Source: Endotrypanum monterogeii (lineage: Eukaryota > Euglenozoa > Kinetoplastea > Trypanosomatida > Trypanosomatidae). From it: a stretch of DNA of 64,000 nucleotides. The DNA is taken from NCBI GenBank assembly GCA_000333855.2, contig CM007320.1, positions 1,401,419 to 1,465,418 of the forward strand. The letters are read 5' to 3'. The translations under genes were made by a program, and so were the position numbers. The stretch's first letter is position 1, and each line of letters opens with the position of its first letter. The notes under the pieces were generated by a model, which made no database searches, was not told the origin of the DNA, and worked only from the letters and a program-made list of their open reading frames with translations. This document shows, in pieces, positions 1 through 31,783 of this stretch.

Positions 1-962
1 GACACCTCATCTCGCACCGTCTTATAGAGTACGGTAGAGAGGTACCTATCACCAAATGATGGAATGACGGTCACGATGGTCTTGCCCTCCATATCCGGAC
101 GCTCTGCGATCTTTAACGCTGCGTAAACATTGGCACCGCCCGAAAAGCCGCAGTAGACGCCGTCGCTGCGTGACAGCCTCAGTGCCGTCTCGATGGCGTC
201 GTCGCCCGACACGCAGAGCACCTCGTCAACGAGACTGGAGTCGAGAACACCCGGCACAAACCCTGCGCCGATCCCCTGAATCTTGTGGGGGCCCGGCTTT
301 CCGCCAGACAAAACAGGCGACTCCGCCGGCTCCACGGCAACAATACGGGCATTGCACCCCACTTTCTTAAACGCACGCGCTACACCGGTGAGCGTGCCAC
401 CTGTGCCGACTCCGGCAATAAAGCAATCGACATTGTGGCGGGTCTGCTCCAAAATCTCAGGCCCTGTGGTCTCCTCATGAATGAGAGCGTTGTATTTTGT
501 TTTGAACTGATCGGCCAAGACAGCGTTAGGGTTAGCAGCGACGATCTTCTTCGCCATTGACACAGCGCCTTTCATGCCAAGAGCAGCAGGAGTAAGAATA
601 AGCTCAGCGCCGAAAATGCGAAGAAGACAGCGACGTTCCAGAGACATGGATTCAGGCATAGTGATGATCACCTTGTAACCGCGAATTGCACCCAAGTGCG
701 CCAGTGTCACACCGGTGTTTCCACTGGTCGCCTCAACCACCACCGACTTTCCTGGGATCAGCTTGCCCTCCCTCTCCGCTTTATCGTAGATGGCAAACCC
801 GAGGCGATCCTTGACAGATGCCATCGGATTTTCAGATTCCAGCTTCAGCACAATCTTCGCCTTTGTGTGGTTCAGCTTATTCAAGTACAACGCCGGGGTC
901 TGGCCAATAAGCTGATCAATGCACTGCGCCACATCCTTTGATTTGTTAAATGGTGCCGCCAT
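1..962 (-). CDS. Cysteine synthase (O-acetylserine sulfhydrylase), 3' end outside window
   Basis: PLP-dependent enzyme that makes L-cysteine from O-acetylserine and sulfide in the cytosol. Reading from the ATG at 962-960 gives about 320 residues with no stop before the window edge, so only a short C-terminal part is missing (family length about 320-335). Seen directly: the start MAAPFNKSKDVAQCI, the PLP-lysine motif SVKDRLGFAIYDKA, the substrate loop TSGNTG, the phosphate-binding loop GTGGT, and the late CGFSGGANVYAA segment. All catalytic landmarks are intact. The 5' flank carries a CA/TG microsatellite (1001-1041) followed by AG dinucleotides suitable for trans-splicing. It is the last gene visible in the minus-strand array. 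Cystathionine beta-synthase is a less likely alternative because no heme or regulatory domain fits this length. Confidence 0.95.
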   Translation of the reverse strand, partial: MAAPFNKSKDVAQCIDQLIGQTPALYLNKLNHTKAKIVLKLESENPMASVKDRLGFAIYDKAEREGKLIPGKSVVVEATSGNTGVTLAHLGAIRGYKVIITMPESMSLERRCLLRIFGAELILTPAALGMKGAVSMAKKIVAANPNAVLADQFKTKYNALIHEETTGPEILEQTRHNVDCFIAGVGTGGTLTGVARAFKKVGCNARIVAVEPAESPVLSGGKPGPHKIQGIGAGFVPGVLDSSLVDEVLCVSGDDAIETALRLSRSDGVYCGFSGGANVYAALKIAERPDMEGKTIVTVIPSFGDRYLSTVLYKTVRDEV

Positions 963-1686
963 TGTTTCTCTTCTCGCGCTTATTATTATCCCTGCGTAAC
1001 TGTGTGTGTGTGTGTGTGTGTGTAGTGTGTGTGTGTGTGTGCCAGAGGGGGGTAGATTAACTATTTCGTGGCTAGAAAATCCCCAAAATGTGTATATGAG
1101 AGTGAGGAAGCTGTATGTGAGCGGTTGCGGTTGACTTGAACCTTCCTCGGGGTGACAGAGCCGTACGAGGGGGGGTGAAGGGAGATTGGAGAGTTCAATA
1201 TATGAGCATAATCGGTGATGGCAAGAAAGAGGGGAGTGGAGGCGCATACTAATCATAAATGATAAGAGAGAAAAAAACAGCTTGCAAGGGTGAGCAAAGC
1301 GCCTGGAAACCCCCCGATGACTGAGCAGCCAAAGAAAGAGACCCGTGCGCATCTGGAGAGGCATTCAGGCTGGTTCGAACGACAGAGCAAAGGGCAGCGG
1401 CGCGAAGGAAGAACCGCTATGCGATATCACTTCTTCATTCAGCCCTTTCATGTCATGCATCTGCCGATCCAAAGTGGGTTCCCAGGAAGGGATAGCCAAC
1501 GCCCTGAGTGACTCAAGTAGTCAGGAGCTCCGTCACAGAAACGCAACCTTCCCCTCCCCCCTTTTCCTCACTTTTTTCGTCTGTCTTCGAGGGTGTTGCA
1601 TGCTGCCGTGTATATAAGTCACCGCCCCCCCCCCGACAGCGCAGGTGCAAGTCAGTGTCTGCAGTGAAGAAAACGTGAGCATATCC
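963..1686. other. Intergenic region with TG microsatellite
   Basis: No convincing gene. It holds a TG run at 1001-1041 close to the cysteine synthase start and G/C homopolymers near 1169 and 1625. It should contain the 5' UTR of cysteine synthase and the 3' UTR of the next minus-strand gene. Confidence 0.6.
1001..1041. repeat. TG microsatellite
   Basis: Two TG blocks broken by one TAG, just upstream of the cysteine synthase start. In the transcript it reads as CA repeats next to AG acceptor sites. Confidence 0.9.
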
Positions 1687-3108
1687 TTAGAGTGGTATCT
1701 TGTCCGTCGCTGCCAACTGCACACCGCGCTGGAGTGCTGCCGCACGCTCCTCAGCTAGCCTCATCACCAGCGGAAAACGCTTCAGGTGAAGTTTGATCTT
1801 CCGCGCAGTCGGCCAGTGACGCCATGTACAGTTATGTTTGTCGCCCTGGAAAATGATTTCCATCAAGTGGCAAGTGGCGCAGTATGGACACTCAGAGCTC
1901 GCGTGTTTCGCCGGCTCGGCGTAGCGCGCGTGATACTGAGAAATGCACGGAATATGACCACGTACCCCCACCGTCGAATTCCGATGGAAAACCTGAGGAG
2001 TACCAGAAGAAACCCGTGTGACCCTTCGAGCGCATGGTTCGACGTCGACAAGGGGATGTGATGGCGGTGCTGCCGTTACCACCGGCGCGTGACGAGTTGG
2101 CAAATCTCGTCGCGTTGGTGCACTCAGTGCAGGTGCTGAAGTGCCAGTTTCGTTGAGCAGCTCGCCGATCCGAATTTCGGCATCGTCATTGATTCGCTCC
2201 TCCTCAACGAGTCGCGGCAACATTTCTTTCTTCAGTACAATCTGGGCAGGGGAAGTCGCCTCCCCGGGCACGTGCAGTTGTCCCACGGGCTCTGGGTACA
2301 GCAGTGCCAGCTCACGGCAGAGCGAGAATTGAAACGGCACGGCTGCACTCACGCGGCCAACGAATGTGTCGAGCCGTGACAACGAAGCTGGGTCTATGGA
2401 AGAGAAGGAAGCTGTGGGCGAGGGAAGTTCGTGGACAGCAGCGCGCAACGTCTCCGCAGCGCTACTTTCCAAGGAGTCGCACAGCCTCAGTACCCCATCC
2501 ACTGCGACCTGCCGCATCTCGGGTGTGAGGCGGATCCATCGGTGAGCAATAATACGCCAAGAAAGCAAGTCCATGAGCATCTGAAGAGATGGAAAGCATC
2601 CGTGATGAAGACGAATAATACCTCGCTCTTCCAGTGTGCGCAAGTTAGGACGGAGGCGAGCTGCCAGATGCTCCAGTCGTGTGTCTTTTGGTGTCCAAAG
2701 TGTCAAGCGAATCGCTGCTTCCGCGAGGCCAAGGAATACAGGCATCTCCGCCGAAGTCTGTGGCATAGGAAAGGATTCCTGAGAAGCACGGCGGAGGGAT
2801 ACCGGCACATTATCAGATTCCGTCTGCCTCTTCAGGGACACGAGAAGCTGCTGCGCCAGCATGTCGGCAAGCCCGCTGCAACAGTCACCCGTGACAACCT
2901 CCTCCTTCACCCTCTTGAGTGGCGGGCGTTGTTCCGTTGGTGTGACAGAAACTGTTGACTGACGCTTCGTATACTTCTCTCTCGCAGCCGCTAACCATTG
3001 ATGATACAAGAAGCGGTGTGATGACTCGGAAGGTACGAACAGACCGCTACTCCGCTGCTGGATGGCGCACCTTGTACAGAACGAATCGAATGACTCTTCG
3101 TCGCACAT
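1687..3108 (-). CDS. Hypothetical protein with terminal Cys motifs (473 aa)
   Basis: Family not recognised. The frame is open further upstream, but that extension translates a TA microsatellite into repeated Tyr-Ile, so I start at the ATG at 3108 (MCDEESFDSFCTRCAIQQ). Two cysteine clusters sit at opposite ends: CTRC at about residues 11-14, and near the C-terminus HARYAEPAKHASSECPYCAT followed by Cys, His and further Cys/His. The C-terminal set could bind zinc. The middle (about residues 80-330) looks helical, with Ser/Thr-rich linkers after it. A likely splice acceptor lies near 3216 after a pyrimidine tract, which places the TA repeat inside the 5' UTR together with an out-of-frame ATG at 3119. 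Function unknown. Confidence 0.75.
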   Translation of the reverse strand: MCDEESFDSFCTRCAIQQRSSGLFVPSESSHRFLYHQWLAAAREKYTKRQSTVSVTPTEQRPPLKRVKEEVVTGDCCSGLADMLAQQLLVSLKRQTESDNVPVSLRRASQESFPMPQTSAEMPVFLGLAEAAIRLTLWTPKDTRLEHLAARLRPNLRTLEERGIIRLHHGCFPSLQMLMDLLSWRIIAHRWIRLTPEMRQVAVDGVLRLCDSLESSAAETLRAAVHELPSPTASFSSIDPASLSRLDTFVGRVSAAVPFQFSLCRELALLYPEPVGQLHVPGEATSPAQIVLKKEMLPRLVEEERINDDAEIRIGELLNETGTSAPALSAPTRRDLPTRHAPVVTAAPPSHPLVDVEPCARRVTRVSSGTPQVFHRNSTVGVRGHIPCISQYHARYAEPAKHASSECPYCATCHLMEIIFQGDKHNCTWRHWPTARKIKLHLKRFPLVMRLAEERAAALQRGVQLAATDKIPL

Positions 3109-3114
3109 ATTGAG

Positions 3115-3118
<4 letters not shown>

Positions 3119-3155
<37 letters not shown>

Positions 3156-3163
3156 ATGTGTGT
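3119..3163. repeat. TA/TG microsatellite in a 5' UTR
   Basis: Lies 11 bases upstream of the ATG at 3108 on the minus-strand transcript; its edge creates an extra out-of-frame ATG (3119-3117). Confidence 0.88.
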
Positions 3164-5152
3164 AAGGAGGGGGGGAAGAGGATCGCACAAAAACCCACCC
3201 ACCCGTTCCTCCCTTTCGAAGACAAGAGACCGAGACAACGGCGGAAAAAAAAATCAGCGGAAAGAGGGGAAAAGAGCTGAGCCGCTGTCTCTATTCAACA
3301 TCACGCGTGGGAAGACCGCACGGGATAAGAAAGCGTCCCAAAAAGAAAATGTGAGTGCATTATAATGAAAAAAAAAGGGGGGGGGCAATCGGGGAGAGGG
3401 AAACAGGAAGGATGTGGGAGCGCGGTCCTGATAGAAGCTCCCGTTGTTTGCCACACCTGCATAGAAAAGGCCTCCCACTCTCTAACGGGATACCGGCGTC
3501 CAGACGATCACAGAAGGTAGTGCAGCGAGATGAAAATCATGTGTACGCGGCGCCTACAGCGTACATGGCATTGGGCCTCCAATGAAAGTACCAGTGAAGA
3601 AATCCACCGAGGTGCTCCATTTGCGCATCGAGCGACGTATAAATATTTGTCACAGCTGCCCGCACCACTCTGGCGCACGACGGACCATATGTTTCCCAGA
3701 CGAGACAGTCCCGAAACAGTCTTGCGCGTCCCTAAAAGTTTTGCCTCGAAGGCGAATAGAATATCACTGATGTCTCTTTCGTACGAAATAATTGTAGCAG
3801 GAAAAATAAAAAGGAGAGACACAGATCAATAGATAGCTAGAGAAATGAAGGGGTGAAGAGGAAGGGGAAGAAAATAAACAACGAGATCCAGAGAGGGGAA
3901 GGGGGGGATAAAAACGGAAAGCAGAAAGGGCAAAAAAAAAAAGAAAGCGAGCGAATCGTACTACCCGTCCCTTCGAACTCACATACAGTAAATGAGCATA
4001 TATATATATATGTATATATAATCTACTGGGACACTCGAAACAGATGATCATGGCAAACAGCTCAGAAACGCAAGCACATCATGATGCGGTCCGCATGTGG
4101 TACTCCCATCGAACAAAACAAAAAGTGCACGAAGCGGGAAGCAGTGAAAAAATTCAGCAGAGCGCAACACCTGATAGACGGTGCTTGACGAAGAAGTGGT
4201 CATCCGGGACAACAAGCACAAGTTCATACAAAACAGATAGTTGCGGTCAAGAACACACAGGGCAGCCCCCGTTGTCCCAAACTTAGCGGTTCTGTGCGCC
4301 AACGACAACGAGTCTGCTACTCGCGTTCCTATCTCTGCTCTCGTGAGCCGTTGGCAAACGTAACTGCATGATACTCAGAGGCAAACTATTTTCATATGTC
4401 ACACAAGCCACACTCAGTGTTGTGTGTCGTACAAAGCCCTCAAAAAGAAGAAACGGTACCACACGCTACACGCCTGTGCTGAAAGCATGCGGAGACCTCA
4501 TCTTTTCTCGACGGAGACCTGCGGCGATGGCGATCTTCAGCTCCCTTTGCCCAATACAAGTAAGTGCTTCTCTTCAGTCAACACAAAATGTCAATGAATC
4601 CTCACGCACCCTCGACGTAGCGCGCGCATGTACACGCACAGACACACACAAAAAAAAAATCCTTTGTGGTGGGAAAGCAGGAGCACCAACAACAATAACA
4701 AATATATATATATATATATATATATTAAGCCACAAATTCGCTAAGACTCAAAGAAAATATTCTACCCTGAAACGAGATGAATCTCTGTAAATGATTACAC
4801 GTTTTACCGATGCATTACCGTGTACGCGTCTGTGTGTGTACGTGTGTGTTGGGGGAGAGAAGGGGGTGAAGGAAGGGGGAGGTGCCCATGCTTGAAAAAT
4901 AAGGGAGTGCATCAAAATGCGTTGGTGGCACATAACCCTGTAACAACGGCAGCCTCGCATTAGATTTTCCTCACCACAACGACTCCCGAAAAAAAGAAAA
5001 TAACAGGAAATGCAATGAAATGCTGGTGTTTACATTCTGAGATAGTCAGAGCCTTCCCATGCCCTGTTTATCGGCTGCAGAGACGTAAAAGTTAGGCGAG
5101 AAAGAAAGGGTAGAGGGGGAGGGGGGGGTCGACAAAATCAAGTGAGTCTAAC

Positions 5153-5195
5153 AGCACACACACACACGTATATATATATATATATATATATATAT
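5153..5195. repeat. CA/TA microsatellite
   Basis: CA run joined to a TA run within the long intergenic region left of the F-box-like gene. Confidence 0.88.
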
Positions 5196-5706
5196 CAACA
5201 TAGGAACTGTTATGTATTACAGAAGAGGAGAAAGAGAAAAAAAAATGCATGGAAGAGAAAGGAGAAAAGGGGTTGGGTCAGCCAGAGCGATATGAGAGCT
5301 AGATCCGAGAAAAGAGCAGTAATAAAAATACACCGTATAGTGAGAGCTGTCAATGCACTGGTAAGACTATCCATTGGAGCACGGGTGTGTGGCAATGCCA
5401 ATCTTCAGAATTCCACGTTGTCACACGTTCACTTGGCACTCTCCACCAGTTAGAGAGCGTTCATGCGTATGTGTACGTGTGACTAAAATGTATCATCTTG
5501 TCCCCCCCCCACCCCTAACACACACACACACACACACGCACACACACGAGTGCGCCAGTCCTCAGTGGTCCCATACAACTTTCTCTTTTCCCCTCCCTCT
5601 TTTCGTGAGTCAGTAGTCGATTGCTACTCCTCTCTCTATTTCTCAACTCTCAGTAGACATCAGATGCAATGCGAACACAAAGAAAAATATATATGTGCGA
5701 TGAGAA

Positions 5707-7338
5707 TCATGACACCGTTCCCCAAAGCAGAGATTGCAAGTGCAACCACCAACCATTGTAGCAGAGCACTGATACCGTCCACAGCAGCGAGGCAGACACG
5801 ATACCAAACGCAGTGCAAGAAAGCACCTCCACACCTGTAAAAGACGGCGGCATCATCAAGAAGCGACCTGTGGCAGGAAAGACAATGTCGCCGCCCACGG
5901 CAGAGGTAACCTTGAGAACTGTCATGAACGGATCCGGCGGGGCCGTGGGCGAAAGCTCGGGGGGCCGAAGACCAAACATATAGACACAGCCGAGTCCGCC
6001 CTCTACCGTCTCCATAAGCGGTCGAAGATTATCACCGCAATCGCCGTATGACAAACTTGCTGTGACAAGAGATACCTGCTGACGCCTCAAAACATAGCAC
6101 GAAGGGTGCCCAATCAAGATCCATCTTGTCAGTGAAAGATCAGAAGAAAGCAGGAGCACCCTATCCAAACCTTGATGCTGCATGTAGACGAGATAGGTGG
6201 CCTGGCAAACAGCGATGCGAACACTTTTAAACGCCACACGATTGGGTATAATGGCAGCGAGATCGATGAACCGCTCCTCAGTGTCCTGTCGTTTTGGCTG
6301 GTAATTCACCGTATGCAAGCGCACCTCCCGGCAGTTCATCACAGCGTATTCGTCATGATCCTCGCATGGGGTGCTGTAGACGTCACCGCAGCTGCTATGC
6401 ACCAGATCCAAGCACCAGGACGAAATCCAGAAGAGTTCTTCCGCGACCACCTTGCCCAATGCGCTCGTCTTGAGCAGGAATACACCGTCCTCATTCGCAT
6501 ACAGCGCAGAAGCACCCCCCATCCAAAACGCACGCCACGCAGCACTGCTAGCGCCTAGGTAAAATCTCAGCGGTGGCGACAAGTGAGACGCATCCACGAG
6601 CACGGTATCACGGCTCCTAATTCCGGTCACAAAGTTTTGGAAGGGATCCGGCAGCGGTACTATCCGCGCCCGCAGGTGTGTAGCCAAGAGAGCGGACTGT
6701 TGCAAGTCCGATGCTTCGCTGTAGGCGCTGCTATGTCGTTTGGGATCAAGCCGGCTCATCTCCCACCAAAACGAAACGTGTACGTTAGCGGTACAGAAAA
6801 AAGCGTGGTGGTCGTAATCGAGTAGAAAGCGATCGCCATTTGGGGACGCGTAAAAGCCGTCTGTTCCGACAGGTAGTTCGATCATTACTTCGGTGAGAGC
6901 GTCGAAAACATGCAGCTCGCCCTCGCGCGTTGTACAGAGGAGGTAGCGATTCCCACTGAAGCGTACAAGTGAAGATGGGAAAGCAAAACAAGCAGGAAGC
7001 TCCTTCTGATGATCCACCAAGCACCCATTGTCGCCCACCAGCCTGGTATACAAGTAGCACTCTACCTCATCGATACTAGATGTGTCTGTGCCACTACGCA
7101 CAAGGACCAGAAGCCGCTGTTCTTTCTCCAGGTAACCGAGAGCTAAGATTTGACTGGGCGGAGCAAGCTCAACGTGGTCTTCTTTGAGGCATGGCCACAC
7201 CAAATACTGCTTTTCCTCATATGATATGAACGAATCGGTGACGATCTTCCGGCAAAGAGGTGAGACTCCGCTCAATATCACGAGTTCCTTCTTCGTCAAG
7301 TAGGACGCAATAAGAGTCAGCGTATCGGCGCATTCCAT
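5707..7338 (-). CDS. F-box-like hypothetical protein (543 aa)
   Basis: The ATG at 7338 gives 543 residues. The N-terminus (about residues 4-34, ADTLTLIASYLTKKELVILS then GVSPLCRKIV) has the spacing of leucines and the paired helices expected of an F-box, the segment that binds Skp1 in SCF ubiquitin ligases. The rest is rich in beta-strand-like stretches (for example FSGNRYLLCTTREGELHVFD) that could form a propeller, which would then be the substrate-binding part; this is inference. The last ~35 residues are hydrophobic (FGIVSASLLWTVSVLCYNGW), a possible C-terminal membrane anchor. A pyrimidine tract at about 7375-7435 and an AG near 7357 fit trans-splicing. No catalytic motif is visible. Confidence 0.75.
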   Translation of the reverse strand: MECADTLTLIASYLTKKELVILSGVSPLCRKIVTDSFISYEEKQYLVWPCLKEDHVELAPPSQILALGYLEKEQRLLVLVRSGTDTSSIDEVECYLYTRLVGDNGCLVDHQKELPACFAFPSSLVRFSGNRYLLCTTREGELHVFDALTEVMIELPVGTDGFYASPNGDRFLLDYDHHAFFCTANVHVSFWWEMSRLDPKRHSSAYSEASDLQQSALLATHLRARIVPLPDPFQNFVTGIRSRDTVLVDASHLSPPLRFYLGASSAAWRAFWMGGASALYANEDGVFLLKTSALGKVVAEELFWISSWCLDLVHSSCGDVYSTPCEDHDEYAVMNCREVRLHTVNYQPKRQDTEERFIDLAAIIPNRVAFKSVRIAVCQATYLVYMQHQGLDRVLLLSSDLSLTRWILIGHPSCYVLRRQQVSLVTASLSYGDCGDNLRPLMETVEGGLGCVYMFGLRPPELSPTAPPDPFMTVLKVTSAVGGDIVFPATGRFLMMPPSFTGVEVLSCTAFGIVSASLLWTVSVLCYNGWWLHLQSLLWGTVS

Positions 7339-18245: not shown

Positions 18246-20000
18246 TTACAGCGCGTAGGGAGAGCGAAACGGATAGAAAATACTATCGTCGAGACGCGGC
18301 AGTATTCGCGGGGCAACAACTCGGCGCATAACAGTTTCTTGCGAGTTCGGCCTATATCTGGAAAAGCTCACCCTGAATAGAATCTGCTGTAGGGAAAGAG
18401 CGGCTTCTGTAAAATCTGTCTCATTCCATATTCGAAGAGTTCCTACAATAGGTGATGCAAATGCACCAACTATGATGTCCTGTGCATTATACTCAACACC
18501 GGCGCGCGCAATCACAAACTGGTAGTGTAAGCCTACAGTAATATTTTCGCATTGACGAGTGTACGCATCGTAGATGCCTGGAGAAGTTGTCAGAGCCTGA
18601 GACAATCCACTTATAGGAATCCAGCTAGTTGTGTCGTTTGTAAGGGCATCATTGGTAACGGCTACTCGATCCAAGATAGTCACTGTGCCGCTTTCTGTGC
18701 CAAGCAAATTAGTGAGGAGGTCCCGAGTACCAGATCTGCAAACATTCTGCAATTCGAGTTCGTTCATCGAAACCAAACACCCACTACTAAGAATTGAATA
18801 TAGAAAGCTAGCACGTTTCCACTGATTCCTACCGCAAAGCCTACCACCCGCCGGTACGGCAAATCCACTTTCGCGCTCAGAGATTGCATTTTTTCCTTCG
18901 CGGATCAGAAATGTTCCTGCACGAACTTTGTTGCCTGGAATATATCCCGGAACCCCTGCAAAAATATTAGCCGGAACAGTTGTATTTTCGTCAGTAAACA
19001 AAGACTGGAAAGAAAGCACAGTGTACTGTGACAAGCCAATATTTCTCAGTGTGATGTTTATCACGGCACCGGTTAACCGACCGCTTATTGTTGATGAATA
19101 TGAAAAGTGAGCGCGGAGAGCGACAATCGCATTATTGCAATTTTCTCCATCGGAAATTGTTGCGTAAGTATTCGGCGCTGGAATTACGCTGGGATCAAGA
19201 GTCTCCAATAACTCGCCAGAGGCATCGTGAAGATTTAAAGTGATGGGCACAAAATCGAGGGCACTACTGCTGTATCCTAACGTGGGCTGTAGGAATAGAT
19301 TCTCATATTTTGCAACCGGGAACAACAAACACATTTGAGCGCCGTTTAGTGTACAAGTGGTGCCTTGAATAGAATCCAGAAAGCCTATGCTTCGTCCGAT
19401 CGTTCTGCACGAACCATCGCCTGTAGTGGTCGGTAGTTGGAAAACGCCAGTACGGCGGTAAAAAAATTGTTCATTTAAATTCACATATTTTGCAGCCCTC
19501 AAAGGATCGCCTACAGTGTATGGCTGACTCGCACTCACCGTTGTAGTAACTTTAGGGGGCAGTGAAGGCTTCTGAACATTTGTGGGGATTTTGAAATACC
19601 GATAGAGCTCGCTGGGATGATTTGTCCGAATAACGCATACCGCGTTGTAGCCTAGTCCTTTATTTTCTATGTAAGTAGCATCTATGTTATTAATTCTTTT
19701 CAAAGAGGTTGCCCTGTCACTCGGATAACAGTAGTCTAAATATGGCGAACTATGCGTTTCAGGAAGGCAACTTAAAAAGGCTGCTCGTGTAGCAGGGGAG
19801 CAATCCTCATCGCAGCAACATAGAGGATCGCAAATACCTCGAGTAACATCACAACCACATTCACCTAAATACGGAGAATTTAGATTTCGAGGTGGCGGCG
19901 GATTGTTGGGAACGTTGTCCCAGTCTATGTCTACCTCTCCTGCTGGATACGCAAATGCCGAAGTAGCAAGAAGAAGAAGACACAAGAAACCCTGCAGCAT
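18246..20000 (-). CDS. Tectonic-family protein (ciliary transition zone), 584 aa
   Basis: The ATG at 20000 gives a textbook signal peptide (MLQGFLCLLLLATSAFAYPA, cleavage near residue 17). Residues ~48-67 hold the Cys-dense signature CGCDVTRGICDPLCCCDEDC, the hallmark of tectonic proteins (DUF1619). The rest is a long beta-rich ectodomain with several sequons (NIT, NTT, NDT, NET) and scattered cysteines. Tectonics are secreted or membrane-tethered parts of the MKS/B9 complex that gates the cilium; trypanosomatids have a flagellar transition zone, so the role fits. No strong C-terminal membrane segment is visible. Codon use is clearly more A/T-rich than in the ribosomal genes downstream. The acceptor is probably the CACAG a few bases before the ATG. 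Confidence 0.82.
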   Translation of the reverse strand: MLQGFLCLLLLATSAFAYPAGEVDIDWDNVPNNPPPPRNLNSPYLGECGCDVTRGICDPLCCCDEDCSPATRAAFLSCLPETHSSPYLDYCYPSDRATSLKRINNIDATYIENKGLGYNAVCVIRTNHPSELYRYFKIPTNVQKPSLPPKVTTTVSASQPYTVGDPLRAAKYVNLNEQFFYRRTGVFQLPTTTGDGSCRTIGRSIGFLDSIQGTTCTLNGAQMCLLFPVAKYENLFLQPTLGYSSSALDFVPITLNLHDASGELLETLDPSVIPAPNTYATISDGENCNNAIVALRAHFSYSSTISGRLTGAVINITLRNIGLSQYTVLSFQSLFTDENTTVPANIFAGVPGYIPGNKVRAGTFLIREGKNAISERESGFAVPAGGRLCGRNQWKRASFLYSILSSGCLVSMNELELQNVCRSGTRDLLTNLLGTESGTVTILDRVAVTNDALTNDTTSWIPISGLSQALTTSPGIYDAYTRQCENITVGLHYQFVIARAGVEYNAQDIIVGAFASPIVGTLRIWNETDFTEAALSLQQILFRVSFSRYRPNSQETVMRRVVAPRILPRLDDSIFYPFRSPYAL

Positions 20001-20301
20001 TACAGCTGTGTGATTATTGGTCGAGAAAAACACAAACTGTAGGAGGTGAGAAAATTGATGAAGAGGTCAGCTATTACATTTGATCCCCGAGTTCTAGAGA
20101 CAAAATTTGTACTTGAAATAAATTCAATTACTACAGACACTGTAGAGTATGGCTAACATTTTTGATTAAGGAAGTTATGTCTGTTGTTTACAGAATTGCT
20201 TTCAAGAACGATAGAAATATTTTTCTAGTGTTCAATCATTTTATCACTATTATTATTTTTTTCGATCCCTAGAGTTTCTCGATATAGATTGTAAAAGCCT
20301 G
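20001..20301. other. AT-rich intergenic stretch
   Basis: About 300 bp, strongly AT-rich, no gene. Holds the tectonic 5' flank and the Nudix 3' UTR. Confidence 0.6.
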
Positions 20302-24864: not shown

Positions 24865-27798
24865 ATGAACACCGCGGCAGTGAGCGTGGCAATCGAAAAA
24901 TATGATATTCACGATGTTTTTCTGGCGTTGAGCGTCCTACGAAAGCTACCCGAGTACACAACAGAGCTGGAGGAAGGCTCCACTGAAGTATCCTACCAAA
25001 TCATCTACAATTCGATTACTACTGCTCGCTGGTACTGCCGACGTTACTCCCGTTATGGGGAATTCGTTCGTTTGCTTAACACATACGTGGAGTACAACAG
25101 TCTAAATTCCTACAATACTGCTCTCGAAGTGGCGAAAAAAATTGCTGCATATGCTTCCGAAGTTCAGATCCCACATCTGCAGCAACGAATGCCGCTCCTC
25201 CTCGTTGCATTTCTTCTTGTTGCATTTATTTGCTCCGTAGTGACAGTGATTCTTATTGGCTCTGGGGAGAGATGCTGTCAAAAAAGGGAGATATCTGCGC
25301 TGCTGCTCAGTTCGGCCAGTGTTGTGTGTTTGTGCGTTCTTTTTCAACAAATCAACACTTCACTCAAATTGTGCGAATACAGAAGAAACCAGCTGCTTGT
25401 TGACCGAATGGTACGGATAGCCTGTGCGAAAGCTGACCAAGTGGATATCCGCAGTCACCCGCTGTCACAATGCGTTGGCCGAAAGGAGCGCGTAGCAGTG
25501 GAAGACACCGATTCATTTCTTCTGGACGGTGAAACAGCGCATCGTAATCGGAAGGCTATTTCAATGCTTCTAACGGAAGCAGTCGAGGACGAGGGGACTG
25601 TGGTTTTGCGATGCCGGGGACTTCCTCCAGCTATGATCGGCCTTAGCGCTATCTATCGACATACAATCATTGTCATGACAGACTTCGATGGGAAGGTTGT
25701 TATGTGGAGTGATGGCGCAGCTACCTGCTTCGGTTTCAGTGCACGAGATGCTGAAGGAAGCAATATAAATTCTCTTCTTTATGGCGAGCGGTCTGTAGAG
25801 CTCTACACAACAATGACTGAAGCAGCTGTGAAGAACCTGGACCTTTCCGAAAAAGTATTAACTCTGGCGCATATGAGTCTGGGCAGTGTTTCCATCAGTG
25901 CAACAGTGGTTGTGAGCCGCGAGACCGAGTCCAATCAGCCTGTCGGGTTTACCCTCATCGGGTCAGTACGCTCTGATGAATTGTCGCAGACGCAGGCGGT
26001 TTTGCACTCATTCTTTGTGACTGAGTTGTCTCATTTGCCCATCAAGGACAGTCAATTCAAGCAAATTGTGGACTGTTTGCGGTGGAAAAACCTGCGCGAC
26101 TTCTCGGCGCTTGCGAGAGACTGGAGAAGTGCACACATTCGGCAGCTGCTGTCTGAGGTTATCAAAGGAAGACAGCGCTATGTGAGTGTGGAGGTAGATC
26201 CGAAGGTAACCGAGTTGCCGCCTATCCTCTGCGATGCTGTTGGTGTGACTGCGGTGCTGAACCGCGCTTTTGAGCTCTTCAGCATTAAAATCAGCGTTCG
26301 CGTTGAGCAAAAACGTACGACTAGTGCGGTATACCAGCTCGTTGTTATTTATCGTCATGACACCTTCGAACTCAATCGAAGCAATTTGGTCAGCATCACT
26401 CGCTCTGCAAACGACCTCGGTGGTATTGTGATCGATTCGCCTGGTACACTTAAGCTTTTACTTCCTTTTATGGTAAAGGATGACGCGATTCAGGCCTTGC
26501 GGCCTCAAGGTACTGCTCCGCAGAAACCGATCGGTCATGATCCCCTTATTGTTCTTCTTCTTGAGAAGAATGCGGTGCATCGCCACAATATATCTGCTTC
26601 TATTTGGAACTGTGGCCATTCTTTGCGTTTAGTGGAGAACGTCCGAAAGGCCTTGCAGGCTATTGAAGAATCGACTGACCTCGGGTGCGCTATCGTCGAT
26701 GTCGACGTGAAGGGCTCCGACCGTGTGGTCGAAGCGCTGTTAGCGAAGCGCATTTACATAATCGAAACCTCCGAGGCTTTGGACAGCGTCCCCAAGCGCG
26801 GGGACGCTATTTTGAAAAAGCCGATTTCGAATGAAGCGCTTCGTAAGGAGTTGGGGAGGGCGGCAGACAAGTGCGAAGAGGCGAAGCGTGTCGGTGAAGA
26901 GCTCCTGAAGCGGCAAGAGGTTTTTGGAAAGGTGCGAAACAGCCCCTGGACGCAGGGTCGCCTGCTCGGGCGCGGCGGGTACGCTGCCGTGTATGAGGCG
27001 ACTTCCACCCTGACCGGCGGCAAAATGGCTGTCAAGGTCATATCTGTCTCAGGCAACTTTGAGGAGCGCATCGACGAGTTCATGAACGAAGTAGAAATTC
27101 TGTGCAAGTTGACGCATCCGAACATTATTCACTATTTTTATTGCGAGAGGACAGAGACGACCCTTAACCTATTTATGGCGCTTGCTGATCAGGGCACTGT
27201 GGCTGACCTCCTTAAGCGCTGCCCCCGACTACCGGAAAACCATGTCGCCTCGATCATGAAACAGCTGTTGCAAGCAGTCAACTACTTGCACGAGTGTGGC
27301 ATTATTCACCGAGATATCAAGCCTGGCAACATGCTTATTTCGCAAGGGCAGCTGAAGCTTTCAGACTTCGGGACAGCTACCACAAACGTTCGTGAGGGCA
27401 CAGTTGGCACTATCAGATACATGGCCCCAGAGGTTGTTGACGGTAAGCCAAGCGGTAAGGAGAGCGACATCTGGTCGGTTGGCTGCGTTGTCTGCGAGAG
27501 TTTGCAAATCAAGCGTTCTGGTGGTGGTTTGCTTGGCTATGGTGCCCCCGAAGAGTATCCCAGTGACATCTCTCCTCAGGCGATTGATTTCATCAAGGCT
27601 TGCATGCACAGAAATCCATCGGAGCGTGCAACAGCTGGCACTTTGCTGCTGCATGACTTCATTGTGCACCTCGACCACGAAGTTCCACAGCTAGCTGAAG
27701 TACCAACTGAGGCGGCGCCAAACGACGAGGAAGCGAAGCAACCCAAAGCTGGCAGTGGTTCCAGTGACTCCACTGCCATTAGTTGGTCCTTCGACTAG
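24865..27798 (+). CDS. Membrane PAS / histidine-kinase-like / receiver / STE11-type protein kinase (977 aa)
   Basis: Domain order read from the sequence: N-terminal helical region; two membrane segments (about 112-132 and 145-165); PAS-like domain (about 255-372, IVMTDFDGKVVMWSDGA); H-box-like FFVTELSHLP with His390; degenerate ATPase-like region (about 425-545) lacking a clear N-box Asn; receiver-like domain (about 560-665) with Asp612, Thr635/Ser636 and Lys652-Pro653 in the correct order; then a complete Ser/Thr kinase (about 695-945) with GRGGYAAVYEA, AVKVI, HRDIKPGN (Asp817), DFG (834-836), GTIRYMAPE and SDIWSVGCV. The kinase is closest in style to MAPKKK/STE11. A membrane sensor feeding a MAPK cascade is the inferred role. 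The C-terminal tail is acidic and Ser-rich. It could be mis-annotated elsewhere as simply a protein kinase. Confidence 0.9.
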   Translation: MNTAAVSVAIEKYDIHDVFLALSVLRKLPEYTTELEEGSTEVSYQIIYNSITTARWYCRRYSRYGEFVRLLNTYVEYNSLNSYNTALEVAKKIAAYASEVQIPHLQQRMPLLLVAFLLVAFICSVVTVILIGSGERCCQKREISALLLSSASVVCLCVLFQQINTSLKLCEYRRNQLLVDRMVRIACAKADQVDIRSHPLSQCVGRKERVAVEDTDSFLLDGETAHRNRKAISMLLTEAVEDEGTVVLRCRGLPPAMIGLSAIYRHTIIVMTDFDGKVVMWSDGAATCFGFSARDAEGSNINSLLYGERSVELYTTMTEAAVKNLDLSEKVLTLAHMSLGSVSISATVVVSRETESNQPVGFTLIGSVRSDELSQTQAVLHSFFVTELSHLPIKDSQFKQIVDCLRWKNLRDFSALARDWRSAHIRQLLSEVIKGRQRYVSVEVDPKVTELPPILCDAVGVTAVLNRAFELFSIKISVRVEQKRTTSAVYQLVVIYRHDTFELNRSNLVSITRSANDLGGIVIDSPGTLKLLLPFMVKDDAIQALRPQGTAPQKPIGHDPLIVLLLEKNAVHRHNISASIWNCGHSLRLVENVRKALQAIEESTDLGCAIVDVDVKGSDRVVEALLAKRIYIIETSEALDSVPKRGDAILKKPISNEALRKELGRAADKCEEAKRVGEELLKRQEVFGKVRNSPWTQGRLLGRGGYAAVYEATSTLTGGKMAVKVISVSGNFEERIDEFMNEVEILCKLTHPNIIHYFYCERTETTLNLFMALADQGTVADLLKRCPRLPENHVASIMKQLLQAVNYLHECGIIHRDIKPGNMLISQGQLKLSDFGTATTNVREGTVGTIRYMAPEVVDGKPSGKESDIWSVGCVVCESLQIKRSGGGLLGYGAPEEYPSDISPQAIDFIKACMHRNPSERATAGTLLLHDFIVHLDHEVPQLAEVPTEAAPNDEEAKQPKAGSGSSDSTAISWSFD

Positions 27799-28552: not shown

Positions 28553-31500
28553 ATGATGGAGGGGCATCCAGCACCGACAGCGCAAGGTAGCTCTCCGAAC
28601 CTCAGCACATCGCTGCAGGAGGCTTTCCTGCGTTATGATTCAAAAGAATGGCGGCATTGCGTCAACGGGCCGGCGATAGAGGAAGCACGTCCCCTGCTGA
28701 GGAATCAGTATTTTAATATGGACTACCTTTCCATGTGGAAACCGTCGCTGCTCACATCTCTCGGCGAGGCACGCCATCGAGCTGTGTACGTGAACGAGTA
28801 TCATGTGCTTTTGTGCAGTCGTCGACTTGTTTTGGTCAATAGAAAAGGCCGCCACATCGTCTTTCTTCCCTTTTCTGACTCACTATACGATGCCTATGCA
28901 GAAAGGATCTCCGAGACGTGCACTCTAGTGCTCGCCGCCGTAGCATCTGGCGTCCACGTTATCATCGTTCGGGACTCTGAGGGCGAGAGAGTGGATACGC
29001 TGCAAAGCGTCTTCTGCGCTACCGCGTCTGCGGTCGCCTGCATTCACCACCTCGAGAAGAATCTCTACTGTTTATGCTGCGAGAACTGCAGTGTGGAGAG
29101 TTTGGCCGTCACGCTCGAGAACGCTCACTCACTGCAACCAGTGCTGCACGCAGATGTTTTGTCCAGTGGAAATGGCTGGTTCCAGTCGGCCCGTGACTAC
29201 TACTCACGGAAGAAGTACGTACACAGCTTTTTCGATCGGCACAGAGGCTTTCTCCTGATGCTGTCAAGCCGGGATGTGTCTTTGTGGGAGCTCAGCGACA
29301 ACAGCCATTTGCAGTTGGAGTGCTCCGCGATTCTTCCCCGAGAGCCAGTCGTGGCAATTGTGCCTCCCCTGCAGGATGGGTATGAGGCGGCGGAGGCAGC
29401 GTTACTCGTGACCGGCAGCGGTGGTCGTATTCCGGTGCGTTTAGCCCGAATACCAGACAAGCGCGGCCACTCGCGGTCGCTCACCGTTGGTGAGCTACGG
29501 CCTCTTCCGAGCGGAGTGACGAGCACGGTGATTTCACTGGCATGTGCGTGTGACTCGTCGCTGCTCTTGGTGGACCAGGCTACTTCGTCCCTGCTTCTCG
29601 TGACGCGCTGCGAGCCGTTTTGCGAAGCACCTGCAAGTGCCACTACGCACGTGGTCACGCAGCACTTCTTGGGCAAACCCATTTGTGGTGTCGGGGTCGA
29701 GAAGAACGTCCGCGATGGTGGAAGTTTCCTGACTTTTTTTTTATACTGCGGGGACTCGACGATTGTACGTCTCGGTCGCATGCCTCGTGGTCAACTACTA
29801 CAGAGAAGGTTTGCAGATTCCGTGTCAGGCGGAATCGCTGCGCTCAGCGCGCTCGAGCCCCCGACACGAGTCGATCTTCTTCTTGATAGTACTCTGAATG
29901 GCCTTCCGATCTCGTCTCTTTCTCAAGCCCTCGACCTTCTTCTTCGCCCGCAGGTGGTAGCTGTGGGCACGGTGCGCCTCTCCGATGGAGCACGTGGAAT
30001 CGTTCAACACACAATGCGAGGTTTAAGAGAGCTCTCTCGGTTGTGCTCGTCGTTTCACTATTGGCGTTTGACAGAGGAGCTGAGGCAGTGGAGATGTAGG
30101 CTTGAGAAGAGTTGTACAATACTCACCGAGGTGCTGAACCGTGGCGGTTGGTTGGACTGCCCCACACGTCAGAGGTTGGTGTGGGACGATGGCGTCTTTC
30201 TTCGAGCTGAGGGCATTGTGACCGATGCAACTGCTGCCAATGCCCAGGCAGAGGTCCTGGAGCTGCTGCTTTCTTCGCTAAGGCACGCTACGACGATTGC
30301 GTGGCTTTACGAATTGCACCTGGAGGCCGGCGTTACTTATCGATTTCCCGGTAAACTGGAAGATCTCCTGTGGAGGAGCGATCCAATAACGGTCCAGGTT
30401 TCTTTGTGCATGGATCTATTGGCAAGGCGAAAGAAAGAAGTTGCGGAGCAGCTGTTGCAGAAGGAGCACGTGCTGCCAAAGCACTGCCGCCTCGCCGCTA
30501 CTCTGCTGTCACTGGTGTCAGACAAGTTGCTCGAACCTGTCATGACATACACGCGGCAGCATATCCTCGACCTCGTGCAGCATGACCTTCTCTCGTATAC
30601 GGCGGAGCTTCTCGAGTTGAACTTTCCCACCTCGCATCCTCGCACCCGTCTTTTGGTTTACCGCTACCCACACGATCACAGCGTCTCTTCTCAGATCTTG
30701 TCGGCCGTCGAGAGCATTTCATCGACCAGCGAGCTGTACAGCACACTGGTGACCGTTCTCGACGATGCAGTGTGTGATGGCGAGCTTCGCTCTGTCTTGC
30801 TCGATTGGATGGAACGCCACACACTCGCTGACCACCGTATTTTGACGTTTGCGAAAGTCGTAGTGGACATGGGGCTCTGCGTCGACCCGGCGCACACCTT
30901 GGCAGGTCGCTTCTTTTCGTCAGTCAAACTGCAGGCGGGTGGAGGCTCGCAACAGGCAGCGCTGCGGTTTGCCGAACTGGCGCGTAGTGATCTATCTGTG
31001 CCCCTTAGCGGGCGACTACTTGCTATTGAGCACTCCATCGCCGCGGCACCGTCAGATGACGGCCAACTAATTCACTTCCTGTTGCTCCTCCAGCAGCAGT
31101 TAGCGAGTCTCATCACTAAGCACCTCACAGTCGGTAAGGATCTCGTGCTTCCGCGAGCGACCGTGGAGACAGATCTGCAGGCGTTGCAGGATCACTACGT
31201 TGGCGAGAACTCGCTTTTTGAATTAGCTGGGCGCTACAGGGTCTTGGGTGGCTGCAGCATTCAGCTTGACCTGCTGAAGACTCACACGCATCCTTCAGAG
31301 CCCCTTCTTGCTGATGCGCTCACCGGAGTGCTAATGTTTCTAAAAGCAGTGGGGTTGTCCGCGCCACAGGCAGTGCAGCGTGCTCTGCAGGAATATCTCG
31401 GCACTTTCCAGGCCCAGTTGCCCCTCTTCCCCTTGCTCGAGTTTCTTGCCTTCGATGGCCAATCCCCAGCCGAGGCAATGGACGAACTTGAAAAGGGTGG

Positions 31501-31783
31501 TGTGCCGCTACCCACAATCTTCGACACCTTTATGGGCTTGCTGGACAGGCAGCACCGTCCGCTCTTTCAGATTAGTGACACGGTACAGGCGCTGGGACAG
31601 CTGGTACCCAAGATCAGCCCAACAGTTCAGCACATCTTCGCGGCACACTTGCTTGAGTGCAGCCGGAGCATGCTGGCCGGGGAGCTGCCTAACATCGCTT
31701 TCTCAGAACAGGATATGCACACTATTAGACACATTGGCAACGACATGCGGAGACTATCGCAGCAGAGTCAGACGGCTTTCTGA
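28553..31783 (+). CDS. Large beta-propeller/alpha-solenoid protein, candidate Nup155/Nup133-type nucleoporin (1076 aa)
   Basis: Starts MMEGHPAPTAQGSSPNLSTS just after a CTCTGTCGAAG acceptor. The first ~450 residues alternate short hydrophobic strands with loops (VYVNEYHVLLCSRRLVLVNR; YVHSFFDRHRGFLLMLSSRD then VSLWELSD), the pattern of the Nup155/Nup133 N-terminal propeller, where a 'D..r..Ly.ls....i..w.l' strand pair recurs. The remaining ~600 residues are almost all helical, like the alpha-solenoid of scaffold nucleoporins. Length fits that class. No catalytic motif, signal peptide or membrane segment. Identification rests on architecture and weak motif likeness, so a vesicle-coat or Vps propeller-solenoid protein is also possible. 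Confidence 0.55.
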   Translation: MMEGHPAPTAQGSSPNLSTSLQEAFLRYDSKEWRHCVNGPAIEEARPLLRNQYFNMDYLSMWKPSLLTSLGEARHRAVYVNEYHVLLCSRRLVLVNRKGRHIVFLPFSDSLYDAYAERISETCTLVLAAVASGVHVIIVRDSEGERVDTLQSVFCATASAVACIHHLEKNLYCLCCENCSVESLAVTLENAHSLQPVLHADVLSSGNGWFQSARDYYSRKKYVHSFFDRHRGFLLMLSSRDVSLWELSDNSHLQLECSAILPREPVVAIVPPLQDGYEAAEAALLVTGSGGRIPVRLARIPDKRGHSRSLTVGELRPLPSGVTSTVISLACACDSSLLLVDQATSSLLLVTRCEPFCEAPASATTHVVTQHFLGKPICGVGVEKNVRDGGSFLTFFLYCGDSTIVRLGRMPRGQLLQRRFADSVSGGIAALSALEPPTRVDLLLDSTLNGLPISSLSQALDLLLRPQVVAVGTVRLSDGARGIVQHTMRGLRELSRLCSSFHYWRLTEELRQWRCRLEKSCTILTEVLNRGGWLDCPTRQRLVWDDGVFLRAEGIVTDATAANAQAEVLELLLSSLRHATTIAWLYELHLEAGVTYRFPGKLEDLLWRSDPITVQVSLCMDLLARRKKEVAEQLLQKEHVLPKHCRLAATLLSLVSDKLLEPVMTYTRQHILDLVQHDLLSYTAELLELNFPTSHPRTRLLVYRYPHDHSVSSQILSAVESISSTSELYSTLVTVLDDAVCDGELRSVLLDWMERHTLADHRILTFAKVVVDMGLCVDPAHTLAGRFFSSVKLQAGGGSQQAALRFAELARSDLSVPLSGRLLAIEHSIAAAPSDDGQLIHFLLLLQQQLASLITKHLTVGKDLVLPRATVETDLQALQDHYVGENSLFELAGRYRVLGGCSIQLDLLKTHTHPSEPLLADALTGVLMFLKAVGLSAPQAVQRALQEYLGTFQAQLPLFPLLEFLAFDGQSPAEAMDELEKGGVPLPTIFDTFMGLLDRQHRPLFQISDTVQALGQLVPKISPTVQHIFAAHLLECSRSMLAGELPNIAFSEQDMHTIRHIGNDMRRLSQQSQTAF

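Follow-up and report, generated by a model that had tools for sequence, protein, structure and literature searches.

An ancient paralogue of the dual ancestor kinase in Endotrypanum monterogeii joins a membrane hairpin and a degenerate hybrid histidine kinase cassette to an STE-type kinase

We analyzed a 64,000-nucleotide stretch of the Endotrypanum monterogeii genome (contig CM007320.1, positions 1,401,419 to 1,465,418; here called the window), which is part of contig 36 of a 30.7-Mb assembly of 44 contigs. A single open frame on its forward strand (24865..27798) encodes a 977-amino-acid protein in which a cassette of the hybrid histidine kinase type lies between a transmembrane (TM) hairpin and an STE-type protein kinase. 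The same layout has been described in Tb927.9.3120, named DAK for "dual ancestor kinase" (Jensen et al. 2021, PMC8519429; here and below, published statements are those of the passages cited). The architecture itself is therefore not new, and the window protein is an ancient paralogue within this published kind. Its histidine kinase is dead as judged from sequence, and its receiver domain, which carries a lysine in the metal site, is probably a pseudo-receiver that passes on its input without being phosphorylated. A preliminary description made from the sequence alone had the outline of the anatomy right, erred in taking His390 for the histidine of an H-box, and was too generous about the phosphorylation site.

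Domain anatomy of the window protein

The features of the gene, all on the forward strand, are as follows (window positions, strand, description).

24865..27798, +, whole frame: N-terminal region, TM hairpin, PAS, pseudo-histidine-kinase, pseudo-receiver (putative), STE-type kinase
25201..25257, +, TM segment 1, residues 113-131 (Kyte-Doolittle mean, 3.15)
25291..25347, +, TM segment 2, residues 143-161, forming a hairpin with segment 1 (Kyte-Doolittle mean, 2.15)
25663..25968, +, PAS domain, about residues 267-368 (profile matches; structure model; a solved PAS domain matched in Foldseek)
25975..26121, +, two-helix region resembling a degenerate DHp, about residues 371-419, in which no H-box was seen (model of low confidence, blocks of predicted local distance difference test 47-60)
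26032..26034, +, codon of His390, earlier proposed as the H-box histidine, not conserved (alignment column)
26137..26475, +, degenerate domain resembling HATPase, about residues 425-537 (model; Foldseek matches to histidine kinases; by eye, neither N-box Asn nor G-boxes)
26545..26880, +, receiver domain, about residues 561-672 (isolated structure model; matches to solved receivers)
26563..26571, +, acid pair E567-K568-N569, Lys replacing the acid that binds metal directly (alignments)
26698..26700, +, Asp612, phospho-acceptor position, invariant (alignments)
26767..26772, +, Thr635-Ser636, invariant (alignments)
26818..26820, +, Lys652, invariant (alignments)
26830..26937, +, alpha5 of the receiver, a long helix (residues 656-691) that continues into the kinase, putative signaling helix (model, fragment helix 433-468)
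26950..27663, +, protein kinase domain, residues 696-933 (Pkinase, 2.4e-59)

The frame begins with an ATG, and a stop codon lies in the same frame 12 codons 5' of it. A chance frame is excluded because the core of the protein is conserved as far as Bodo saltans (37% identity over the core). Among the matches listed, the closest relative is from Porcisia hertigi (91% identity in the searched region, 88% over the whole alignment), and the Leishmania donovani relative has 81% identity. At least 22 relatives were found, 21 in a first search and P0023 in a second. Alignment A1 has 22 rows and leaves out P0023, and alignment A4 has 23; all counts out of 22 or 23 include the window protein itself.

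The two membrane segments that had been proposed were found as hydrophobic stretches, and such an N-terminal pair is present in 22 of the 23 proteins; the exception, P0015, is a 753-amino-acid protein that is short at its N terminus. The PAS-like domain was likewise recovered, with NCBIfam sensory_box above its cut-off (23.7 bits; cut-off, 22.9) and a solved PAS domain matched in Foldseek, while the Pfam PAS profile stayed under its cut-off in the window protein (17.8 versus 22.6) and gave a match at E ≤ 1 in all 22 aligned proteins. Fusion of the cassette to an STE-type kinase was upheld in outline: besides the Pkinase match, the catalytic residues K724, D817 (of HRD), and D834 (of DFG) are present. 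The best relatives in the PDB are PLK3 and PLK4 (4e-33 to 6e-31), followed by MAP3K2, TAO3, and STE20-type kinases (6e-31 and weaker). The kinase tree discussed below comprises kinases of this genome and of the relatives, without a reference kinome, and membership of the STE11 or mitogen-activated protein kinase kinase kinase (MAP3K) class is putative.

For the cassette, the decisive evidence is structure prediction and not Pfam. Neither Response_reg nor HATPase_c matched the window protein, and neither is among the 25 of 38 Pfam families listed for its relatives. The degenerate ATPase-like region proposed earlier is borne out by the model and by its Foldseek likeness to histidine kinases. His390 is histidine in just 2 of 22 rows (Gln in 16, other residues in 4), and the column of Thr386, where the H-box histidine falls by eye, has no histidine in any of the 22. 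A scan of the 23 proteins for H-[E/D]-x-x-x-P gave three matches, none in the helical region 371-419. At column 470, the place of the N-box Asn by eye, Asn is found in 1 of 22 rows, and no G-boxes were seen on reading the 22-row alignment. The columns of these three motifs were placed by eye. With H-box, N-box, and G-boxes lacking, loss of histidine kinase activity, as the preliminary description had supposed, agrees with the sequence. A genome-wide search with HATPase_c gave five matches, none of them the window protein; one, on contig 28, lies in a frame that we take by eye to be topoisomerase II-like.

The putative receiver came out as a receiver when modeled in isolation, with the (beta-alpha)5 fold of CheY and matches to solved receivers. 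It is important to note that a human "uncharacterized Rossmann fold" protein (28tm) also appears in the receiver structure lists, at ranks 6 and 38, and thus a match in such a list is by itself no proof of a two-component origin. D612, T635-S636, and K652 sit at the claimed positions in canonical receiver order and, together with E567, N569, and D614, are invariant (23/23), and 21 of 22 rows share P653. The spacing K568-D612-T635-K652 is 44/23/17. At the corresponding residues of CheY it is 44/30/22, and by this comparison the spacing fits a receiver with shortened alpha3 and alpha4. A weak phmmer match (E, 0.13) pairs the E567-K568-N569 stretch with E-D-N of Escherichia coli PhoP; the best phmmer match, SdrG (E, 0.021), does not cover this stretch.

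Residue 568 is Lys in 22 of the 23 proteins (21 of the 22 A1 rows and P0023) and Arg in P0014. The second acid of the receiver pair binds metal directly (PMC12632262), and the CheY mutant D13K is reported to be constitutively active and poorly phosphorylated (PMC4671073). Because Lys568 replaces the metal-binding acid as in this mutant, we infer from the alignments that the receiver is a pseudo-receiver. The claim that the phosphorylation site is kept thus stands for D612, T635, and K652 and fails at Lys568, which had been missed. The receiver reading itself passed the two checks that the preliminary description had named as able to refute it, a structure prediction without a receiver fold and orthologues without Asp612 and Lys652.

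Relation to DAK and to other receiver-bearing kinases

DAK shares with the window protein the TM segments, the PAS, DHp-like, catalytic-like, and receiver regions, and the C-terminal eukaryotic kinase; in both, the catalytic His is lost and the receiver Asp is kept, with conservation to Bodo. The published account reports the mutated His and retained Asp, finds DAK in Trypanosoma cruzi, Leishmania major, and Bodo, lists it at the endoplasmic reticulum, and states that a knockdown phenotype was not then known (PMC8519429). Among the matches listed in the open-licence literature, no other earlier description of the layout was found.

A PAS search of the genome recovered a 1,025-amino-acid protein of the same layout on contig 26 (L016:1434-4511, + strand), the likely DAK orthologue of this genome. 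A search with it found 33 proteins, including those of T. cruzi, T. brucei gambiense, T. vivax, and Bodo. Alignment A5 holds 28 rows, the contig-26 protein and 27 of these 33; P0035, P0036, P0048, P0049, P0055, and P0056 were left out for partial coverage or deviating length. The kinase domain of the gambiense protein P0046 (747-990) and that of published DAK (737-980) are both 244 amino acids long, shifted by ten residues. The receiver Asp is present in 28 of 28 DAK-type rows, but these have an Asn/Cys-type acid pair, Pro at the place of Thr, and no conserved Lys (by eye). The window group, in contrast, keeps Asp, Thr, and Lys and has the additional Lys in the metal site.

Our kinase tree comprised 23 rows, 12 kinases of the genome and 11 of 55 relatives (5 of 22 window-type and 6 of 33 DAK-type). 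The window and DAK groups were separate (support, 96/93 and 100/99), each with a Bodo member, and the window gene is an ancient paralogue of DAK, not its orthologue. Since both groups contain Bodo, the duplication would be older than the split of Bodo from the trypanosomatids. The two kinase domains have 47% identity, and the cassettes are homologous (core profiles, 408 columns, 97.5%, E 8e-12); with the receivers alone, one profile search matched the right place (E, 0.0076, in a small set). The window-group matches listed include Trypanosoma grayi and T. melophagium. No T. brucei or T. cruzi protein is named there (about 8,000 candidates were scored per search, and some rows are nameless), and the group member was likely lost in these two species. 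That the window gene is nevertheless DAK's orthologue, and so already described, is very improbable: the layout is the published one (PMC8519429), but the contig-26 gene fits better, with T. brucei gambiense P0046, T. cruzi, and Bodo in its group and no T. brucei or T. cruzi protein among the matches listed for the window group. RDK1 (Tb927.11.14070) was also tried as an orthologue and dropped, as its published description gives sensor-like and cyclase-like domains and not this cassette.

Three more kinases of the genome, on contigs 15, 20, and 2, have receiver-like stretches. The contig-15 kinase (L018:980-9211, − strand; 2,743 amino acids) has a PAS domain, weak cassette remnants, and a receiver; unlike the window protein, it lacks TM segments and has two cyclic-nucleotide-binding domains. 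Searches with the receiver fragment gave a match to Pfam Response_reg that covers positions 3-110 of 111 (E, 2.5e-4; 21.6 bits; curated cut-off, 30.2) and one to the solved structure 3jte (E, 8e-4). Acid pair, Asp, Thr/Ser, and Lys are all present in this one sequence by motif reading. On contig 20 (L017:41-6860, + strand), PAS, weak cassette remnants, a receiver-like domain, and kinase lie in the frame 2886-6860, and an overlapping upstream frame (41-3109) has sequence that by eye resembles a cyclic-nucleotide-binding domain; the locus is either two genes or one with a frame break in the assembly. The contig-2 kinase (L019:671-5065, − strand) has a TM hairpin and, ahead of the kinase, a receiver-like stretch that by eye lacks the Asp. 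What is left of the ATPase-like part scores weakly on both contig 15 (domain E, 0.5) and contig 20 (0.16), in a small set.

In comparisons among these receivers, contigs 20 and 15 were close (0 of 1,000 shuffles as good). Shuffles scored as well as the window receiver did in 1 of 1,000 cases against contig 15, 2 against contig 20, 64 against DAK, and 369 against contig 2. For the contig-2 receiver the corresponding counts were 0 against contig 20, 5 against contig 15, 369 against the window protein, and 625 against DAK. Upstream regions of six other kinases (on contigs 5, 14, 27, and 32 and two on contig 30) compared with the four receiver regions gave no pair above a z of 3, with 300 shuffles per pair, contig 13 left out, and a contig-14 fragment that includes kinase sequence and was barely tested.

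LmxM.02.0570 is a TM kinase of Leishmania mexicana located at the lysosome and flagellum, as are LmxM.26.1730 and LmxM.36.1530; cells that have lost it have short flagella and move defectively (PMC7902614). Going by chromosome number and the presence of TM segments, we would guess that LmxM.02.0570 and LmxM.26.1730 are the counterparts of the contig-2 and contig-26 genes.

Signal passage and competing explanations

We consider it probable that the window protein is a membrane-anchored STE-type kinase of the DAK kind that belongs to a separate paralogue group and whose pseudo-receiver relays input conformationally. Between hairpin and kinase lies the cassette, with its PAS, DHp, ATPase, and receiver parts, and the receiver most likely works independently of phosphorylation. 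Input at the PAS domain or the membrane would then cause a conformational or dimerization change through the dead cassette, which the long helix 656-691 may hand on to the kinase without phosphotransfer, and the kinase would act in a putative MAP3K-like role. Profile searches of the genome gave no match to HisKA, Response_reg, or Hpt, which fits a system without phosphotransfer.

Several observations weigh against this reading. The genome search missed the contig-15 receiver, yet Pfam found it when it was given alone; the absence of HisKA and Hpt is thus weak evidence and not proof. One of five receiver models was confident (89.3), the other four reaching 55 to 67, and many whole-core Foldseek matches had root mean square deviations near 20 Å and do not fix the arrangement of the domains. 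Compared alone, the window and DAK receivers lend their relationship little support, with 2.1% in hhalign and the 64 of 1,000 shuffles above. Moreover, Myxococcus EpsW with this Lys change was not activated and failed to complement (PMC4671073), and selection for phosphorylation would also account for the invariance of D612, T635, and K652.

A wider version, which we put forward tentatively, is that one captured hybrid histidine kinase cassette gave rise to a kinetoplastid family of receiver-gated STE kinases without phosphotransfer; the fixed Lys, as a natural equivalent of CheY D13K, would keep the receiver of the window branch active-like, and release or masking by the PAS and membrane parts would switch the kinase. 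In the kinase tree, contigs 36, 26, 15, 20, and 2 stand apart from the other seven kinases (92/90; midpoint root only; the contig-2 branch is very long), and it is plausible that the fusion arose once. Against a neat family, the window kinase domain resembles those of contig 5 (144.6 bits) and contig 13 (121.2 bits) more than that of contig 20 (118.7 bits). If the residues read by eye hold, the receivers form a series of decay, complete on contig 15, Lys-locked in the window, with Asp only in DAK, and with Asp lost on contig 2, which would make pseudo-receiver signaling testable within one organism.

Rather unlikely, in our judgment, is that the cassette is a mere dimerizing scaffold or membrane tether, with the receiver silent and the kinase under the control of other kinases or of expression. 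A dead histidine kinase and a modeled helix linking receiver and kinase would suit this, as would the DAK group, which of the receiver residues retains only Asp660 (28/28 rows; other positions by eye), but a pure scaffold would hardly need T635, S636, and K652, which are invariant as far as Bodo.

We give still less credence to a working phospho-acceptor, charged at Asp612 by some donor and gating the kinase as Ssk1 does Ssk2. The fold is intact, D612, T635, S636, and K652 are invariant (23/23), and by motif reading all five residues are present in the contig-15 relative. The direct metal ligand, however, is Lys or Arg in all 23 proteins, at a position reported to be 100% acidic in the receivers and about 80% nonacidic in the pseudo-receivers of one study (PMC12632262), and no HisKA or Hpt match was found in the genome, subject to the sensitivity of the search. 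That the histidine kinase is active with conserved His381 as its acceptor is scarcely credible: His is present in 20 of 22 rows, inside a helix predicted with low confidence, but no acidic residue follows it, no H-box motif lies in the region, and N-box and G-boxes are missing by eye.

Known systems, neighboring genes, and chromosome

CheY D13K and bacterial pseudo-receivers resemble the window protein in having Lys at the second acid with the receiver fold kept (PMC4671073, PMC11528121, PMC4838244, PMC12632262). CheY D13K is a laboratory mutant, whereas the Lys of the window protein has become fixed in a group of eukaryotic proteins, with a Ser/Thr kinase as the output domain. We know of no pseudo-histidine-kinase cassette or TM hairpin in Rim15 of fungi. 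Rim15 is, like the window protein, a protein kinase with an often noncanonical receiver and a shortened alpha4, but its receiver is C-terminal (PMC8510515). In the high-osmolarity glycerol pathway of yeast, the receiver of Ssk1 controls the MAP3K Ssk2 (PMC8510515); these are two separate proteins in a working phosphorelay, whereas the window protein is one polypeptide with a dead donor. The LmjF15.1200-type STE kinase, noted in 2005, also combines PAS with an STE kinase, and the passages cited name just cyclic-nucleotide-binding and PAS domains (PMC1266030). The contig-15 kinase is probably its counterpart.

Few membrane receptor kinases have been recognized in trypanosomatids (PMC8519429, PMC1266030). 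A second ancient fusion of sensor and kinase, with perhaps five kinases that carry receivers in one genome, would offer concrete entry points to the coupling of membrane or metabolic signals to kinase cascades.

The L. donovani orthologue of the window gene is probably LdBPK_363870, judging from its product name and from P0003, whose contig has the size of chromosome 36. In L. donovani, LdBPK_363870, a "mitogen activated kinase-like protein," is a candidate for balancing selection, with a Tajima's D of 3.9 and with 10 nonsynonymous and 9 synonymous variants (PMC8717319). This was the only paper found when the open-licence literature was searched with candidate, mostly guessed, names of the Leishmania orthologue.

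Downstream of the gene, the first frame of at least 250 amino acids (28553-31783, + strand; 1,076 amino acids) has no Pfam match at E ≤ 0.001. Upstream, a frame with tectonic (DUF1619) domains lies at 18249-20033 on the − strand; we take it to encode a protein of the ciliary transition-zone type. Contig 36 is 3.73 Mb long, and the contigs bearing the relatives are 2.77 Mb in L. donovani and 3.84 Mb in Porcisia hertigi, which suggests a chromosome fusion common to contig 36 and Porcisia.
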